In this document: positions 12,378 through 24,100 of the stretch, piece after piece
Numbering within the stretch: position 1 is the stretch's first letter
Layout of the letters: every line of letters starts with the position of its first letter
Notes under the pieces: model-generated
Database searches by the model: none
What the model was told of the DNA's origin: nothing
What the model saw: the letters and a program-made list of their open reading frames with translations, nothing else
Made by a program: the position numbers and the translations under genes
Assembly: GCA_017459925.1 (NCBI GenBank)
Contig: JAFUCC010000198.1
Location: 1-37,389, forward strand
Reading direction: 5' to 3'
Origin: Eggerthellaceae bacterium
GTDB taxonomy: Bacteria; Actinomycetota; Coriobacteriia; Coriobacteriales; Eggerthellaceae
Length of the DNA: 37,389 nucleotides

Positions 12378-13129
12378 TTCATTTCGTAGGCGCAGGTTCG
12401 GGTGCGGCCGACCTCATCACGGTGCGGGGCGCCAAGCTGCTCGAAGAGGCCGATGTCATCATTTACGCGGGTTCGCTCGTGAACCCGGCGCTGCTCGAGT
12501 ACGCCCATGAGGGGTGCGAGATCCACAACTCGGCGCACATGACGCTCGAACAGGTCATCGAGGTCATGAAGGCCGCCGAGGCCGCCGGCAAGATGACGGT
12601 GCGCCTGCACACGGGCGACCCGTCGCTGTACGGCGCGCATCGCGAGCAGATGGATTTGCTTGACGAAGAGGGCATCGCCTACGACGTGGTGCCGGGCGTC
12701 TCGTCGTTCTGCGGCGCGGCTGCGGCCCTGAAGGCGGAATACACGCTGCCGAACGTGTCGCAGTCGGTCATCATCACGCGCATGGAGGGCCGCACGCCCG
12801 TGCCGGAAGGCGAGAAGCTGAAGCTCATGGCCTCGCACGGCTGCACCATGGTGCTGTTCCTTTCCACGAGCTTGCTCGAGCAGGCGCAAGAAGAGCTGCT
12901 GGCAGGCGCGTACGAGCCCGACACGCCCGCGGCCATCGTGTACAAGGCCACGTGGCCCGATGAGAAGGTGTTCCCGTGCACGGTCGGCACGCTCGCCGAG
13001 ACGGCGCGCGAGGCCGGCGTGAAGAACACGGCGCTCATCACCATCGGCGGGTTCCTGGGCAGCGCGTACGACCGCTCGCGCCTGTACGACCCCACGTTCA
13101 CGCACATGTTCCGCGAGGCGAGCGAGTGA
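12374..13129 (+). CDS. cobM: Cobalt-precorrin-4 C11-methyltransferase
   Basis: The 251-residue product (CobM/CbiF) is a SAM-dependent tetrapyrrole methylase. It starts MIHFVGAGSGAADLITVRG, has HTGDPSLYGAHREQM (about residues 78-92) and PGVSSFCGAAAAL (about 109-121), the usual SAM-binding loops of the family. It methylates C11 in cobalt-precorrin-4. The start overlaps the cbiD stop by 4 nt, so translation is coupled. Its TGA (13127-13129) lies inside palindromic repeat A copy 4. Confidence 0.93.
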   Translation: MIHFVGAGSGAADLITVRGAKLLEEADVIIYAGSLVNPALLEYAHEGCEIHNSAHMTLEQVIEVMKAAEAAGKMTVRLHTGDPSLYGAHREQMDLLDEEGIAYDVVPGVSSFCGAAAALKAEYTLPNVSQSVIITRMEGRTPVPEGEKLKLMASHGCTMVLFLSTSLLEQAQEELLAGAYEPDTPAAIVYKATWPDEKVFPCTVGTLAETAREAGVKNTALITIGGFLGSAYDRSRLYDPTFTHMFREASE

Positions 13130-13153
13130 AACAGGTACCAGGTGCCTGTTTCA
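13126..13153. repeat. Palindromic repeat family A, copy 4
   Basis: GTGAAACAGGTACC (13126-13139) and GGTGCCTGTTTCA (13141-13153) flank a single A. The repeat's edge supplies the TGA stop of cobM, exactly as copy 2 does for the HXXEE gene. It lies 18 nt before the cbiG start. Confidence 0.88.
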
Positions 13154-14343: not shown

Positions 14344-15084
14344 ATGACTGGAAAGCTGCTGGTCGTAGGTTTGGGTCCGGGCGGGGCCGAGGACATGTCG
14401 GGCCGCGCGCGTGCGGGCATCGAGTCGTGCGACCTCATCGCGGGCTACACGGTGTACGTCGACTTGCTGCGCGACGAGTTTCCCGACAAGGAGATCATCA
14501 CCACGCCCATGCGCAAGGAGGTCGAGCGGTGCCGTGCCGCGCTGGAAGCTGCCGCGGCTGGCCACAGCGTCGCCATGGTGTGCTCGGGCGACCCGGGCGT
14601 GTACGGCATGGCCGGACTCATCTACGAGCTGGCGGACGAGTTCCCGCCTGTCGACATCGAGGTCATCCCCGGCGTGTCGGCGTCGAACGGGGGAGCAGCC
14701 GTGCTCGGCGCGCCCCTCATGCACGACTATTGCGTCATCTCGCTTTCCGACTTGCTCACCCCGTGGGAGACGATCGAGCGCAGGCTCGTGGCGGCGGCGC
14801 AGGCCGACTTCGTCATCAGCCTGTACAATCCCTCGTCGCACAAGCGCCCCGATTACCTGCAGCGGGCGTGCGACATCCTGCTTCAGCACAAGGGCCCCGA
14901 CACCGTGTGCGGCACCGTGCGCAACATCGGGCGCGAGGGGCAGGAAGCGCATGTCATGACGCTGGCCGAGCTGCGCGACACGCAGGTCGACATGTTCACG
15001 TGCGTGTTCATCGGCAACAGCCAGACGGTCGAGCTGAACGGCAAGATGGTCACCCCGCGCGGTTACCTTCAGCGGGAGGATTAA
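14344..15084 (+). CDS. cobJ: Cobalt-precorrin-3 C17-methyltransferase
   Basis: This 246-residue tetrapyrrole methylase matches CobJ/CbiH. It starts MTGKLLVVGLGPGGAEDMSG, has VCSGDPGVYGMAGLIYEL (about residues 80-97), PGVSASNGGAAVLGAPLMHD (about 114-133) and LSDLLTPWETIERRL (about 137-151), which is typical of the ring-contracting enzyme. It methylates C17 and drives ring contraction. AGGAGAAGGG precedes the start. The stop is one base before the GTG of cbiJ. Confidence 0.93.
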   Translation: MTGKLLVVGLGPGGAEDMSGRARAGIESCDLIAGYTVYVDLLRDEFPDKEIITTPMRKEVERCRAALEAAAAGHSVAMVCSGDPGVYGMAGLIYELADEFPPVDIEVIPGVSASNGGAAVLGAPLMHDYCVISLSDLLTPWETIERRLVAAAQADFVISLYNPSSHKRPDYLQRACDILLQHKGPDTVCGTVRNIGREGQEAHVMTLAELRDTQVDMFTCVFIGNSQTVELNGKMVTPRGYLQRED

Positions 15085-15085
15085 C

Positions 15086-15982
15086 GTGGAGCGGATGGAA
15101 CGGAAACCGGGAATTCGTTCCACTTCGGTGGAGGAACGGCAGCTGGGGAAGTGGAACGAATTCCCGGTTTCCGTTCCATCTGGCAACGGCGCAACGCCGC
15201 GCGTCCTCGTGTTCGGCGGCACCACCGAAGGCCGCGAGCTCGCCACGTGGCTGGGCGAGCGCGGCGGCTGTCAGGTCGTCGTCAGCTCGCTCACGGAATA
15301 CGGCGGGTCGCTCGTCGAGGACATTCCCAACGTGACGTCGCTCACGGGACGCATGCTGCCGGACGACATGGAACGGCTCATGCGCGACGAGCGCTTCGCG
15401 TGCGTCGTCGATGCGACGCATCCGTACGCAGCTGGCGTGTCGGAAAGCATCGCGGGCGCCGCCGAGGCGTGCGGCGTGCCGCTGTTGCGGGTGCTGCGCG
15501 AAAGCGAGCCCGAGGGCCCATGGGAAGGCGTCGACAGCCCGGCTGAAGCTGCGCAGCTCATCGCGCAGAAGACGGGACCTGTCATGCTGACGACGGGCAG
15601 CAAGGACCTTCCGCTGTACGTCGCCGCCGTTCCCGACTTCGCCGAGCGGCTGTACGCGCGCATCCTTCCCGTGGCCTCGTCGCTTGCCGCGGCGGACGAA
15701 CTCAGCATCCCGACGAGCCACATCATCGCCATGCAGGGCCCCTTCTCGAAGGAGCTCAACATGGCGCTGATCCGCGAGTTCGGCATCCGCACGCTCGTGA
15801 CGAAGGCGTCGGGTGCGGCCGGTGGGTTCTGGGAGAAAGTCGAGGCGGCACAGGAATGCGGGTGCGACCTCGTGGTCATCCACCGCCCGCTCGACGAAGA
15901 GGGCCTGAGCATGGACCAGGCGAAACAGGCTATAGTGCATTATTTGATGAGTGGCAGGATGAGTAGCAGGACTGTCCTGTGA
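15086..15982 (+). CDS. cbiJ: Cobalt-precorrin-6A reductase with repeat-derived extensions at both ends
   Basis: The enzymatic core begins at about residue 38 (RVLVFGGTTEGRELATWL, the NADPH loop) and continues with VVDATHPYA, LLTTGSKDLPLY and LVTKASGAAGGFWEKV, all typical of CbiJ/CobK, which reduces precorrin-6A. The start GTG 15086 follows GGGAGGA at 15074-15080. The first 37 residues lack homology: codons for about residues 4-32 are the inverted repeat C at 15094-15180, whose 87 nt keep the frame. The last residues (MSSRTVL) and the TGA are the left half of repeat B at 15958. Without these ends the protein would be of normal size, about 255 residues. Function is probably kept, because all core motifs are intact. 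Confidence 0.9.
   Translation: MERMERKPGIRSTSVEERQLGKWNEFPVSVPSGNGATPRVLVFGGTTEGRELATWLGERGGCQVVVSSLTEYGGSLVEDIPNVTSLTGRMLPDDMERLMRDERFACVVDATHPYAAGVSESIAGAAEACGVPLLRVLRESEPEGPWEGVDSPAEAAQLIAQKTGPVMLTTGSKDLPLYVAAVPDFAERLYARILPVASSLAAADELSIPTSHIIAMQGPFSKELNMALIREFGIRTLVTKASGAAGGFWEKVEAAQECGCDLVVIHRPLDEEGLSMDQAKQAIVHYLMSGRMSSRTVL
15094..15180. repeat. Inverted repeat family C, inside the cbiJ coding sequence
   Basis: Two 30-nt arms (15094-15123 and 15151-15180) are exact reverse complements around a 27-nt spacer. Each arm is itself nearly palindromic, beginning GATGGAACG and ending CGTTCCAC. The total of 87 nt is 29 codons with no stop in the cbiJ frame. A single related unit lies in cbiA at 18126-18156. 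Confidence 0.92.
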
Positions 15983-16056
15983 CTCATTTCCTGTGAGAGG
16001 CTGCGAGCCCGGGTGATTGCCAGAAAATGAGTCACAGGACAGTCCTGCTACTCATC
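15958..16056. repeat. REPIN-like repeat family B, copy 1 (full size, 99 nt)
   Basis: Left unit 15958-15988, 37-nt spacer, right unit 16026-16056. The units have the CTG-centred form with arms beginning (A/G)ATGAGTAGCAGGA and ending with TCCTGTGACTCATT, and they are exact reverse complements of each other. The left unit encodes the last residues of CbiJ and its TGA stop (15980-15982). The right unit ends 22 nt before the cbiE-cbiT start. Confidence 0.92.
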
Positions 16057-16078
16057 ATTAGGCGAAACGGAGCATGAT

Positions 16079-17372: not shown

Positions 17373-17412
17373 TGGGAGCGCCCCTACAGTGGGAAAGGAA
17401 CTGGGAGGATTA

Positions 17413-18807
17413 ATGAGTTTAACGGCACCGCGCATCGTCATCGGCGCCCCCGCAAGCGGCGGGGGCAAGACCACGTTCACGTGCGGCCTGCTGCAGGCGC
17501 TCGTGCGGCGCGGCATGGCGCCTGCCGCGTGCAAGTGCGGCCCCGATTACATCGACCCGATGTTCCACAGCGAGGTCATCGGCGCCTTTTCGCGCAACCT
17601 CGACCTGTTCTTCTCGGATGCGGCCCAGGTCCGCTCGCTCGTCGCCGACAGCGCCGCGCATAGCGACGTCGTGGTCATCGAGGGCGTCATGGGTTACTAC
17701 GACGGCATCGCGGTGAGCGACGAGGCGAGCGCGTGGGACGTCGCGCGCACGACCGACGCCCCGGCGGTGCTCGTCATCGACGGCCGAGGCCGCGCGCGTT
17801 CGATTGCCGCCGAAGTTGCCGGGTTCGCGCGCTTCCGCGCGGACAGCCACGTGGAAGGCGTCGTGCTGAACCGCGTGTCCGACATGCTGTACCCGCGCCT
17901 GAAGGACATCATCGAAACCGAGACGGGCGTGCGCGTGTACGGCTACCTGCCCGTGCTCGAGGATTGCAGCCTGGAAAGCCGCCATCTGGGATTGGTGACG
18001 GCCTCCGAGGTCGCCGACCTGCAGGTGAAGCTCGACAAGCTGGCGAGCGCGATGGAGCGCACGGTCGACATCGACGGCCTGCTGCACCTGGCTTCGTCGG
18101 CGCCTGCCCTGAACGAAGCTCCTTGGCTGGAACTGATACCGGGTTTCCGTTCCAGCGGCTACAACGCTCCGCGCATCGCCGTGGCGCACGATGACGCGTT
18201 CTGCTTCTACTACGCTGACGCCTTGCGGCTGCTGCAGCACCTCGGCGCCGAGCTCGTCGAATTCTCCCCGCTGGCCGACACGGGCCTGCCCGAGGGCGTT
18301 TCGGGCCTGTACCTGGGCGGCGGCTACCCCGAACTGCACGCGCGCGAGCTGAACGCGAACGCGCTCATGCGCACGTCGATTTCGCGCGCCATCCGCTCTG
18401 GCATGCCGACCATCGCCGAGTGCGGCGGGTTCATGTACTTGCACGACGTGCTGGAAGACTCCGACGGCGGCACGTATTCCGAGGTGGGTGTCGTGCCGGG
18501 CGCGTCGTTCAAGACCTCGAAGCTCGGGCGGTTCGGCTACATCACGCTTACCGCCGCGCACGACGGCCTTCTCGTCGACGCCGACGAGAAGCTGCGGGCG
18601 CACGAGTTCCATTACTGGGATAGCGAGACGCCTGGCAACGATTTCACGGCCGAGAAGCCGCAATCGGGCCGCTCGTGGAAGTGCGGCATGTCCACGCCTT
18701 CCATGTACGCGGGCTATCCCCACCTGTATCTGCCGGCTCATCCGCAGGCCGCCCGTCGTTTCGTCGACGCGTGCGCGGCCTACGACGGGGAAAGGGGCCA
18801 ACGATGA
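17413..18807 (+). CDS. cbiA: Cobyrinate a,c-diamide synthase
   Basis: From ATG 17413 (GGGAGGA just upstream) the protein has 464 residues; GTG 17389 in frame is an alternative. The N-terminal ATP-binding domain has the P-loop GAPASGGGKTTFTCGLL (about 9-25) and CKCGPDYIDPMFH. The C-terminal glutamine amidotransferase domain has LYLGGGYPELHA and the nucleophile cysteine in IAECGGFMYLHD (about 335-346). It amidates the a and c side chains using ATP and glutamine. Residues about 239-248 in the interdomain linker (LELIPGFRSS) are encoded by a family C palindrome at 18126-18156. The TGA overlaps the cbiP ATG. Confidence 0.93.
   Translation: MSLTAPRIVIGAPASGGGKTTFTCGLLQALVRRGMAPAACKCGPDYIDPMFHSEVIGAFSRNLDLFFSDAAQVRSLVADSAAHSDVVVIEGVMGYYDGIAVSDEASAWDVARTTDAPAVLVIDGRGRARSIAAEVAGFARFRADSHVEGVVLNRVSDMLYPRLKDIIETETGVRVYGYLPVLEDCSLESRHLGLVTASEVADLQVKLDKLASAMERTVDIDGLLHLASSAPALNEAPWLELIPGFRSSGYNAPRIAVAHDDAFCFYYADALRLLQHLGAELVEFSPLADTGLPEGVSGLYLGGGYPELHARELNANALMRTSISRAIRSGMPTIAECGGFMYLHDVLEDSDGGTYSEVGVVPGASFKTSKLGRFGYITLTAAHDGLLVDADEKLRAHEFHYWDSETPGNDFTAEKPQSGRSWKCGMSTPSMYAGYPHLYLPAHPQAARRFVDACAAYDGERGQR
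18126..18156. repeat. Single palindromic unit related to family C, inside cbiA
   Basis: The ends GCTGGAAC and GTTCCAGC pair exactly, and the interior ACCGGGTTTCCGTTCC nearly matches the family C arm of cbiJ read on the other strand. It encodes the linker between the two CbiA domains without breaking the frame. Confidence 0.75.
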
Positions 18808-20330: not shown

Positions 20331-20987
20331 ATGAGCAGCCTGGACAAGTTGGAGTTCGTGAAGCCGGCCGACATCGAGGCGCGCAGCTTCGAGATTATCA
20401 CGAGCGAGCTGGGCGACAAGCAGATCGACCCGGAGAACGAGCTCGTCGTGAAGCGCGTCATCCACACGTCGGCTGACTTCGACTACGCCGACAACCTGGT
20501 GTTTTCTGAACATGCGACGACCATTGGCGTCGAGGCGTTGAAGGGCGGCTGCTCCATCGTCACCGATACGAAGATGGCGGCATCGGGCATAAACAAGCGC
20601 GTGCTCGCGAAGTTCGGCGGCGAGGTTTTCAACTTCATCTCCGATCCGGACGTGGCCGCCGAGGCGAAGGAGCGCGGCCTCACGCGCTCGGCCGTGTGCA
20701 TGGAGCGTGCCGCCGCGCTGGGCAAGCCGCTCATCTACGCCGTGGGCAACGCGCCGACGGCCCTCGTGCGCCTGTACGAGATGCTGCAAGCAGGCGAGAT
20801 GCCGTGTCCGCCCGCGCTCATCGTCGGCGTGCCCGTCGGCTTCGTGAACGTGGTTGAGTCGAAGGAGCTCATCTGCGAGCTCGACGTACCGCACATCGTG
20901 GCGCGCGGCCGCAAGGGCGGCAGCAACGTCGCCGCCGCCATCTGCAATGCGCTCCTCTACCTCGCCAGCAACAACGCCCGCGAATGA
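20331..20987 (+). CDS. cbiC: Cobalt-precorrin-8 methylmutase
   Basis: This 218-residue CbiC/CobH protein moves the C11 methyl group to C12 to give cobyrinate. The catalytic histidine motif VIHTSADFDYADNL is at about residues 43-56, and SIVTDTKMAASGINK and AVGNAPTALVRL follow. The ATG follows AGGAGGG. It comes after the amidating enzymes although it acts before them. It is the last recognisable cobalamin gene; a B repeat follows immediately after its TGA. Confidence 0.94.
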   Translation: MSSLDKLEFVKPADIEARSFEIITSELGDKQIDPENELVVKRVIHTSADFDYADNLVFSEHATTIGVEALKGGCSIVTDTKMAASGINKRVLAKFGGEVFNFISDPDVAAEAKERGLTRSAVCMERAAALGKPLIYAVGNAPTALVRLYEMLQAGEMPCPPALIVGVPVGFVNVVESKELICELDVPHIVARGRKGGSNVAAAICNALLYLASNNARE

Positions 20988-21067
20988 AATGAGTAGCAGG
21001 ACGTTCCTGATACTCATTTCCAGTTCCGCTGACGAAAATGAGTATCAGGAACGTCCTGCTACTCATT
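20988..21067. repeat. REPIN-like repeat family B, copy 3 (18-nt spacer)
   Basis: Left unit 20988-21018 and right unit 21037-21067 are exact reverse complements and have the same arms as copy 2. The spacer is 18 nt instead of 37, consistent with an internal deletion. It separates cbiC from hom. Confidence 0.92.
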
Positions 21068-21074
21068 TCCAGGG

Positions 21075-22403: not shown

Positions 22404-23063
22404 GTGGCCGGCTTCATCTTCGACATGGACGGCTGCCTGCTCGACAGCATCAACCTCTGGTTCGATTCCGAGCAGTACGTGCTCGACATGGTCGGCGCCA
22501 AGCTGACGAAAGACGAGCGCGACGAGCTGAACACGCTGACGCTCGAAGAGGCCGGCGATTGGTTCCATGACAAGTTCGGCGTCATGGGCAGCGGGGAAGA
22601 GGTCGCCCGCACGATTGTCGATTACATGATCGACTCGTACCGCAACAAGGTGCAGCCGAACCCCGGCGTCACCGAGTTCGTGGCGGCCCTGCACAACGCC
22701 GGGGCGCCCATGTGCGTGCTCTCGTCGAGCCCGCAGGAGTTCTTGCAAGCCGGCCTTGGGCATGCGGATCTGAAGCAGTACTTCGAAGAGGACCTCATCA
22801 TATCGGCCGAGGACCGCGGGTGGACGAAGCGCAACCCCGAAACCTTCCAGCGCGCGTGCGCGCTGCTCGGCACCGAACCTGCCGAAACGTGGCTGTTCGA
22901 CGACAGCTGGTACGCGGTGCAAACAGCGCACGAAACGGGCTTGCACGTGGTCGGCACCCACAGCTCCGACCGATGCGGCACTCACGAAGAGCTCGGTCGC
23001 TACGCAGACAAGGTCATCGACGACTTCACCGCCCTGAACCCCGCCGATTTCCTGAATGAGTAG
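22404..23063 (+). CDS. HAD-family hydrolase (phosphatase-like)
   Basis: This 219-residue protein has the HAD motifs in order: FDMDGCLLDS near the N-terminus (nucleophile and acid aspartates), SSSPQE in the middle, the lysine region TKRNPETF, and FDDSWYAV. It resembles beta-phosphoglucomutase or phosphoglycolate phosphatase-like members; the substrate is unknown. The GTG start follows the hom TAA directly, with GGAGG inside the end of hom, so the genes are coupled. A role in homoserine or threonine metabolism is possible but not shown. The last two residues (NE) and TAG are encoded by repeat B copy 4. Confidence 0.85.
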   Translation: MAGFIFDMDGCLLDSINLWFDSEQYVLDMVGAKLTKDERDELNTLTLEEAGDWFHDKFGVMGSGEEVARTIVDYMIDSYRNKVQPNPGVTEFVAALHNAGAPMCVLSSSPQEFLQAGLGHADLKQYFEEDLIISAEDRGWTKRNPETFQRACALLGTEPAETWLFDDSWYAVQTAHETGLHVVGTHSSDRCGTHEELGRYADKVIDDFTALNPADFLNE

Positions 23064-23125
23064 CAGAACTGTCCTGTGACTCATTCTCTGAGAAAATGAG
23101 TCACAGGACAGTCCTGCTACTCATT
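23055..23125. repeat. REPIN-like repeat family B, copy 4 (9-nt spacer), ending two convergent genes
   Basis: Left unit 23055-23085 and right unit 23095-23125 are reverse complements with one mismatch, of the CTG-centred type seen in copy 1. The HAD gene (+) and the P1 peptidase gene (-) both end Asn-Glu-stop using AATGAGTAG from opposite edges of this element. It probably also acts as a bidirectional terminator-like hairpin. Confidence 0.93.
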
Positions 23126-24100
23126 CCTCTGCGCGACGGTCTCCGCGCAGGGCAGGCCGTAAGCGTCTTGCGCACTGCGCACTGCTGCCAGTATCGCCTG
23201 CGCCACGACGTCTGCGGCGAGCATTCCCACGAGATCGGTGTCGGCTTCGACTTCGCAGGTGGAAAGCGCGTACAGGCTGTCGCCGTCCATCGACGTGTGA
23301 ACGGGGCGAATCGTCCGCGCCAAGCCGTCGTGCCCCATGCCGGCAACCTTGCAGAGCTGCGCCTTCGTCAGGTTGGCGTTCGTGAGGATGGCGCCGATGG
23401 TCGTGTTCGTCACGACATCCGATTTCGCAGCCGCGGCTTTTTCGGCAAGGTCGTACAGAACCTCCGCGGTCGACCTAAAGGAATTTCCGTCCTCTGCCAG
23501 CAGGCCCGCCACCGTCTTTCCCGATGCGGGATCGCTCACATCGCCGATTGCGTTCACGACGACGATGGCGCCAACCTGCACGTCGCCGACCTGCACCGCG
23601 AAGCTCCCGATGCCCGACTTCATGCAGAACTCGGGGCCGCACGCCTTCCCCACGGTGGCTCCGCAACCTGCTCCGTAGTTTCCGTCGCGGTAGTTGCCGG
23701 TCTCGGCATTTGCGCAGGCAGCGTAGCCCATTTCGGCATCCGGACGCGCAGAAGGGTCTCCTACGAGCAGATCGAAGATGTCCGATTGGCACACGATGGG
23801 CACATGCGCCGGGCCGACCTCCACGCCGATGCCGCGTTCTTCCAGATACCGCATGGCGCCGCCAGCCGCATCGAGCCCGAACGCGCTTCCCCCGGCGAGC
23901 AGCACGGCGTGAATGCGCTCGGCAGCCGCCAACGGGTCGAGCGTGCGCGTGTCGCGAGAAGCGGGGCCGCCGCCCCGCACGTCGATTCCAGCGGCCATGC
24001 CCTGTTCGCGGATTATCGCCGTCACGCCAGTGGCGCCAGCAACATCCTCAACCTGCCCGATTTTGAACCCGGCGATATCGGTGATGGCAATCGTGTTCAT
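23117..24100 (-). CDS. P1 family peptidase (DmpA/NylC-like, self-processing)
   Basis: The 327-residue protein belongs to the N-terminal-nucleophile family S58. LLAGGSAFGLDAAGGAMRYL (about 67-86) is the family signature. VVTNTTIGAILTNANLT, around residue 235, matches the site where NylC cleaves itself before a threonine that becomes the nucleophile. Members are aminopeptidases or amidases; some hydrolyse beta-peptides or nylon oligomers. The substrate is unknown. The start has GGAAG upstream. It ends inside repeat B copy 4 and lies downstream of coaX on the same strand. Confidence 0.88.
   Translation of the reverse strand: MNTIAITDIAGFKIGQVEDVAGATGVTAIIREQGMAAGIDVRGGGPASRDTRTLDPLAAAERIHAVLLAGGSAFGLDAAGGAMRYLEERGIGVEVGPAHVPIVCQSDIFDLLVGDPSARPDAEMGYAACANAETGNYRDGNYGAGCGATVGKACGPEFCMKSGIGSFAVQVGDVQVGAIVVVNAIGDVSDPASGKTVAGLLAEDGNSFRSTAEVLYDLAEKAAAAKSDVVTNTTIGAILTNANLTKAQLCKVAGMGHDGLARTIRPVHTSMDGDSLYALSTCEVEADTDLVGMLAADVVAQAILAAVRSAQDAYGLPCAETVAQRNE

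Follow-up and report, generated by a model that had tools for sequence, protein, structure and literature searches.

The cobalt-precorrin-6A reductase gene cbiJ of an uncultured gut bacterium of the family Eggerthellaceae is a single open frame in which both ends of the protein are encoded by palindromic repeats of two families, here called C and B, with the enzyme core between them intact. The window is the whole analyzed stretch of 37,389 nucleotides on contig JAFUCC010000198.1; the genome to which it belongs (G000) was assembled from a metagenome, its contamination being 8%, and the comparison rests on one close relative, G012. We consider it likely that a C-family REPIN was inserted into the first codons of cbiJ, that a B-family REPIN was inserted later at the 3' end, and that the resulting tails are passengers. 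The main elements of the window are as follows.

14344-15084, plus strand: upstream corrin methyltransferase gene of the cobJ/cbiH type, whose stop lies 1 nt ahead of the cbiJ GTG
15074-15079, plus strand: Shine-Dalgarno sequence GGGAGG, 6 nt before GTG 15086, present also in G012 and in other relatives without the full repeat
15086-15982, plus strand: cbiJ frame, GTG start, 298 aa, repeat-coded residues at both ends
15094-15180, no strand: REPIN-like doublet C, inverted REP units 15096-15122 and 15152-15178, 21-nt loop, 29 in-frame codons
15200-15928, plus strand: conserved CbiJ core, residues 39-281, Pfam PF02571, pLDDT mostly >90, dN/dS 0.17 versus G012
15947-15958, plus strand: truncated echo of the B REP outer end (ATGAGTGGCAGG), coding MSGR
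15958-16056, no strand: REPIN B copy at the cbiJ 3' end, source of MSSRTVL and the stop codon
17271-17375, no strand: REPIN B at the cbiET 3' end, altering the C-terminus and supplying the stop
18128-18154, no strand: single C REP within cbiA (17389-18807), in frame and in place of a variable linker between two domains, net +3 aa versus G012
20986-21069, no strand: REPIN B abutting the cbiC stop, upstream sequence the same as in G012
23054-23126, no strand: REPIN B at the 3' end of a HAD-family gene, adding residues NE and the stop TAG

CbiJ and its repeat-encoded ends

The cbiJ frame starts at GTG 15086, crosses palindrome C without interruption, and stops at TGA 15980-15982. The arms of C (15094-15126 and 15148-15180, 33 nt each) are 100% complementary, and the hairpin, which starts 8 nt past the first base of the start codon, has a predicted fold of -90.4 kcal/mol (z -8.5). 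As the initial annotation had claimed, the N-terminal extension holds this 87-nt inverted repeat whole, 15094-15180 lying entirely in frame as 29 stop-free codons. The repeat-coded stretch corresponds to residues 3-32, and the tryptic peptides predicted within residues 1-38 include STSVEER, QLGK, and WNEFPVSVPSGNGATPR. At the opposite end, the arms of B (15958-15993 and 16021-16056) are 97% complementary, and the left arm codes MSSRTVL and the stop from ATG 15959 to TGA 15982, which agrees with the origin proposed for this terminus.

The catalytic core, also described earlier as intact, is indeed so: the Pfam CbiJ match covers protein residues 39-281 and profile positions 1-231 of 234, all family-invariant residues are present in a 49-sequence alignment, and the alignment with the solved precorrin-6A reductase (PDB 4x7g) starts at residue 39. 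The protein shares with the CbiJ/CobK family (PF02571; PDB 4x7g) the whole core and the invariant residues; what sets it apart is an N-terminal extension of 37 residues and a C-terminal tail that has been replaced. Purifying selection acts on the core, whose dN/dS against G012 is 0.17 (0.09-0.14 for the neighbouring operon genes). In the AlphaFold model, pLDDT is mostly above 90 in the core and low in the last residues of the B tail, and the extension is predicted to be disordered (pLDDT about 42-50). Given the disordered extension and the conserved core, CbiJ looks functional and the tails look like passengers; the enzyme probably bears a useless tail at each end.

Some traces of insertion may remain around the B copy. 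A truncated copy of the B REP outer end, 11-13 nt long, lies directly outside the full B REP in the same orientation at 15947-15971 and at 33 other places in the genome, that is, in 34 cases with a control of 0; these echoes are perhaps the footprint of repeated insertion. In addition, AGGCGAAAC flanks the cbiJ REPIN B on both sides (about 15920-15930 and 16058-16068), possibly as an imperfect target duplication.

Repeat families B, C, and A

Family B has about 444 units in G000 and 2 in G012, with 0 hits of the reversed-pattern control, and forms five doublets of inverted REP units with 1-37-nt spacers in the window. Four Y1-transposase (RAYT) genes were found in G000, one of which, L002 (Y1_Tnp, PF01797), has B doublets on both flanks; the other three each have their own palindromes, and a distinct palindrome lies close to most of the 28 RAYT-type loci retrieved for the genus. 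No Y1 (RAYT) match was detected in G012. Since L002 is flanked by B, and G012 is without a Y1 match and almost without B, family B is a REPIN family with its RAYT. Next to this RAYT, at L002:480-1450, antitoxin-like and PIN-like genes were recognized by eye between two B doublets, and the PIN-like ORF finishes in the B-coded residues NEYQDVPATHFQ.

Family C, searched with the wider pattern GGAAC N5 CCGG N6 GTTCC, has 59 units in G000 (control 1), and doublets of two inverted units occur at many loci; G012 has a single clear unit plus a diverged one in cbiJ. Chance palindromes are ruled out by the copy numbers and reversed-pattern controls (444 B versus 0; 59 C versus 1). Of about 32 C places seen on the fetched loci, on which placement was judged, most are extragenic, and those in cbiJ, cbiA, and one amidase gene (about 3/32) were judged coding; long ORFs over the other C loci are mostly antisense or out-of-frame artefacts, or have clear later starts. 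Among these 28 loci, none was found to be flanked by true C units, the assembly of G000 being incomplete. The palindrome of the L004 RAYT has the same outer ends as C (TGGAAC/GTTCCA) and a different core. The REPINs may have been moved by RAYT proteins; what was observed on this point is that sister genomes lack them at the corresponding places, apart from the half of C in cbiJ of G012.

Family A (27 units) has the same layout as C. A hybrid palindrome at G000:C194:18638-18664, with one family A-like and one family C-like half, suggests that the two families are related. In the window, a family A unit is situated at 13126-13153, at the junction of a corrin methyltransferase gene and cbiG, where it overlaps the stop codon of the first gene and the called start of the second; it is absent in G012.

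The families also differ in stop content. Stops are absent from all frames in 11 of 16 distinct C units and confined to one frame in the other five, whereas no frame of the cbiJ B copy is free of stops; the B doublet at 20986-21069 has one frame open. In this small sample, the stop content fits the location of C inside frames and of B at gene ends. The nearly stop-free C units and the cbiJ B copy, closed in every frame and placed at a gene end, suggest why some REP families enter genes.

These elements resemble several described systems. REPINs consist of two inverted REP units with a spacer, have family-specific Y1 transposase genes with the same REP on their flanks, and occur in hundreds of mostly extragenic copies (Bertels and Rainey, PMC3116915). 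B and C share with them the inverted doublets and the mostly extragenic placement, B also its hundreds of copies and B-flanked Y1 gene; they differ in the Coriobacteriia host, in not belonging to the families described, in a few copies within coding sequence, and in that the C RAYT was not found. REPs of the GTAG/CGTC type have been described inside genes of several genera as single units or dimers, with cases at gene ends, cases of two insertions in one gene, and cases in which the REP supplies a stop codon (PMC3733652). All these features recur here, except that the sister genome shows half-copy and empty states and that two families affect one enzyme. An invariant GTAG or CGTC tag was not seen: the B positions after GAGT vary (AG, AT, AC, CG, CA), and C has no tag.

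The initial annotation had drawn a parallel with the Rickettsia palindromic elements (RPEs), which are about 150 bp long and lie in ORFs in nearly half of the cases (reviewed in PMC10969869). The likeness holds insofar as in-frame palindromes add residues to housekeeping proteins in both cases. However, C is 87 nt long and mostly intergenic, the elements are REPs/REPINs tied to RAYT-type families, and precedents exist beyond Rickettsia (PMC3733652); on the basis of placement we reject membership among RPEs, about 3/32 C places being in genes versus nearly half (PMC10969869). Intragenic REPs are thus already described in several genera (PMC3733652), and the present case, a clean instance of something known though uncommon, extends REP-tailed proteins to Coriobacteriia with unusually good comparative support. 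Among the papers searched, none on REPs in Eggerthella was relevant.

The cbiJ locus in related genomes

The comparison with related species that the initial annotation had advised was made for both ends of cbiJ. In G012 (the same assembly as L016), the CbiJ core and the DNA around cbiJ are each 92% identical to those of the window. The gene of G012 (L016), which begins GTGGAGCAAATGGAGCGGAAACCGGAAACGCGTTCCACGTTGCCGCGCGTC, carries VEQMERKPETRSTLPRVLVFGG with a single in-frame C unit of 27 bp, whose left boundary agrees with that in the window; the window gene is longer by 69 nt, a multiple of three. C is absent from cbiJ of the distant genus members L007-L012, and B is likewise absent from the more distant members of the genus. 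There, cbiJ begins 4-14 codons before VLVFGG, and where the upstream gene is common, the Shine-Dalgarno sequence at its end is common too. Removal of the 29 C codons leaves a 9-codon leader, within the range of the distant relatives, and the leaders EGSGKPEVLVF (L009-L011) and VE(R)..SGNGATPRVLVF (window) resemble each other on either side of the C insertion. This likeness favours insertion of the whole doublet with subsequent loss of half in G012, and we suggest this polarity. At the 3' end, G012 CbiJ finishes as ELEKVLGL without B, its terminal MDQAKQELEKVLGL and stop overlapping the next start; the window has MDQAKQAIVHYLMSGRMSSRTVL and a stop, with B and a rebuilt start region. As G012 has the in-frame half of C without B, and distant members have neither, the C insertion appears to predate the split of the window strain and G012, and B appears to be later. 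The relatives thus uphold the view that two repeat families altered both ends of one cobalamin enzyme by insertion and spared its core, with the correction that C is not private to this strain, its in-frame half being kept by the nearest relative. The states with no element, half an element, and the full element form a datable series for a REPIN that the gene of a core metabolic enzyme has retained without loss of its reading frame.

Elements of both families lie at other genes as well. The B doublets at the 3' ends of cbiET, cbiC, and the HAD-family gene have no counterpart at the corresponding places of G012. The C REP inside cbiA is not explicable by a different start and so supports coding C units. 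The same is indicated by an amidase (PF01510) lipoprotein gene elsewhere in the genome, L173, in which a C doublet (L173:1525-1620) stands in place of the Shine-Dalgarno sequence and start; in G012 (L204) this site is empty and intact, with both signals (GGGGAGAACGCATGCGAAGG). In L173, no in-frame ATG, GTG, or TTG occurs between the doublet and the signal-peptide core.

The following scenario is, in our view, the likely account of these data. Before the split from G012, a C-family REPIN would have entered cbiJ within its first codons, downstream of the GTG start and ahead of the strand that opens the core, and would have been kept because its 29 codons are stop-free in the cbiJ frame and add merely a disordered tail. 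In G012 the right half would afterwards have been deleted without a change of frame. At a more recent date, a member of family B, multiplied to hundreds of copies via its RAYT transposase, would have been inserted at the 3' end, replacing the last cbiJ codons and providing the stop. Both elements would be passengers, CbiJ function having been kept. Translation would start at GTG 15086, aided by its coupling to the upstream gene's end; this coupling is invoked because the very stable hairpin begins so close to the start codon.

Probable translation of the N-terminal extension

The cbiJ frame offers four starts: GTG 15086, which has a Shine-Dalgarno sequence, ATG 15095, GTG 15128, which is part of the loop, and GTG 15209. 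Between palindrome C and the CbiJ core, the frame has no ATG, GTG, or TTG. The sole start after C, GTG 15209, has no Shine-Dalgarno sequence and falls within the strand that opens the core (residues 39-44 of the AlphaFold model), so none of the starts both skips the palindrome and spares this strand. On these grounds, the extension is probably translated.

An untranslated palindrome, with ribosomes beginning downstream and the open frame being an annotation artefact, as argued for many N-terminal REPs of Pseudomonas and Stenotrophomonas, seems unlikely to us. Most N-terminal REPs of P. putida, C. koseri, and S. maltophilia were judged probably non-coding (PMC3733652), and the truB locus of G000 is such a case. 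Moreover, 27% of shuffled 87-nt C sequences are stop-free in the cbiJ frame, so a stop-free frame by itself counts for little; the shuffles and truB, with its proper later start, rule out the open frame as sufficient proof of translation. However, a start at GTG 15209 would cut strand 39-44, the best Shine-Dalgarno sequence and start lie before the palindrome and are common to relatives, and the frame is kept by the half-copy of G012 as well. We therefore retain translation from GTG 15086 as the preferred reading, and such loci warn against the trimming of starts by gene callers.

The hairpin itself, of about -77 to -90 kcal/mol beside the start, could strongly reduce cbiJ translation. Because it begins 8 nt past the first base of the start codon, ribosomes that finish the upstream gene at 15084 are probably needed for efficient initiation. 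One may ask whether the hairpin was retained as a regulatory element tying cbiJ translation to completion of the upstream gene, the residues being incidental. Its stability and position, the upstream stop 1 nt before GTG, and the perfect complementarity of the arms would agree with this role, yet the right half is gone in G012, and thus the full hairpin is not conserved; perfect arms are equally expected of a recently inserted or homogenised REPIN, and C REPINs adjoin many unrelated genes. Such retention is accordingly improbable in our opinion, and marginally more so is a translational gate, in which the doublet is itself translated and serves as a coupling device allowing efficient cbiJ initiation only by re-initiation after the upstream gene. 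Least of all do we expect that the tails were co-opted for protein function, for instance, partner binding in the cobalamin pathway: the frame is kept in two species and residues from a C REP are present in CbiA of the same operon too, but the extension is predicted to be disordered, is absent from other genus members, and differs by 23 residues between sisters, and the CbiA insert sits in a hypervariable linker. The elements are thus best regarded as passengers of a working CbiJ.

Finally, at L192:1550-1624 (minus strand) a C doublet directly precedes truB, the frame being open through C and followed by a normal Shine-Dalgarno sequence and ATG (AAGGAGACGAAAATG); truB also has REPs in several other genera (PMC3733652).
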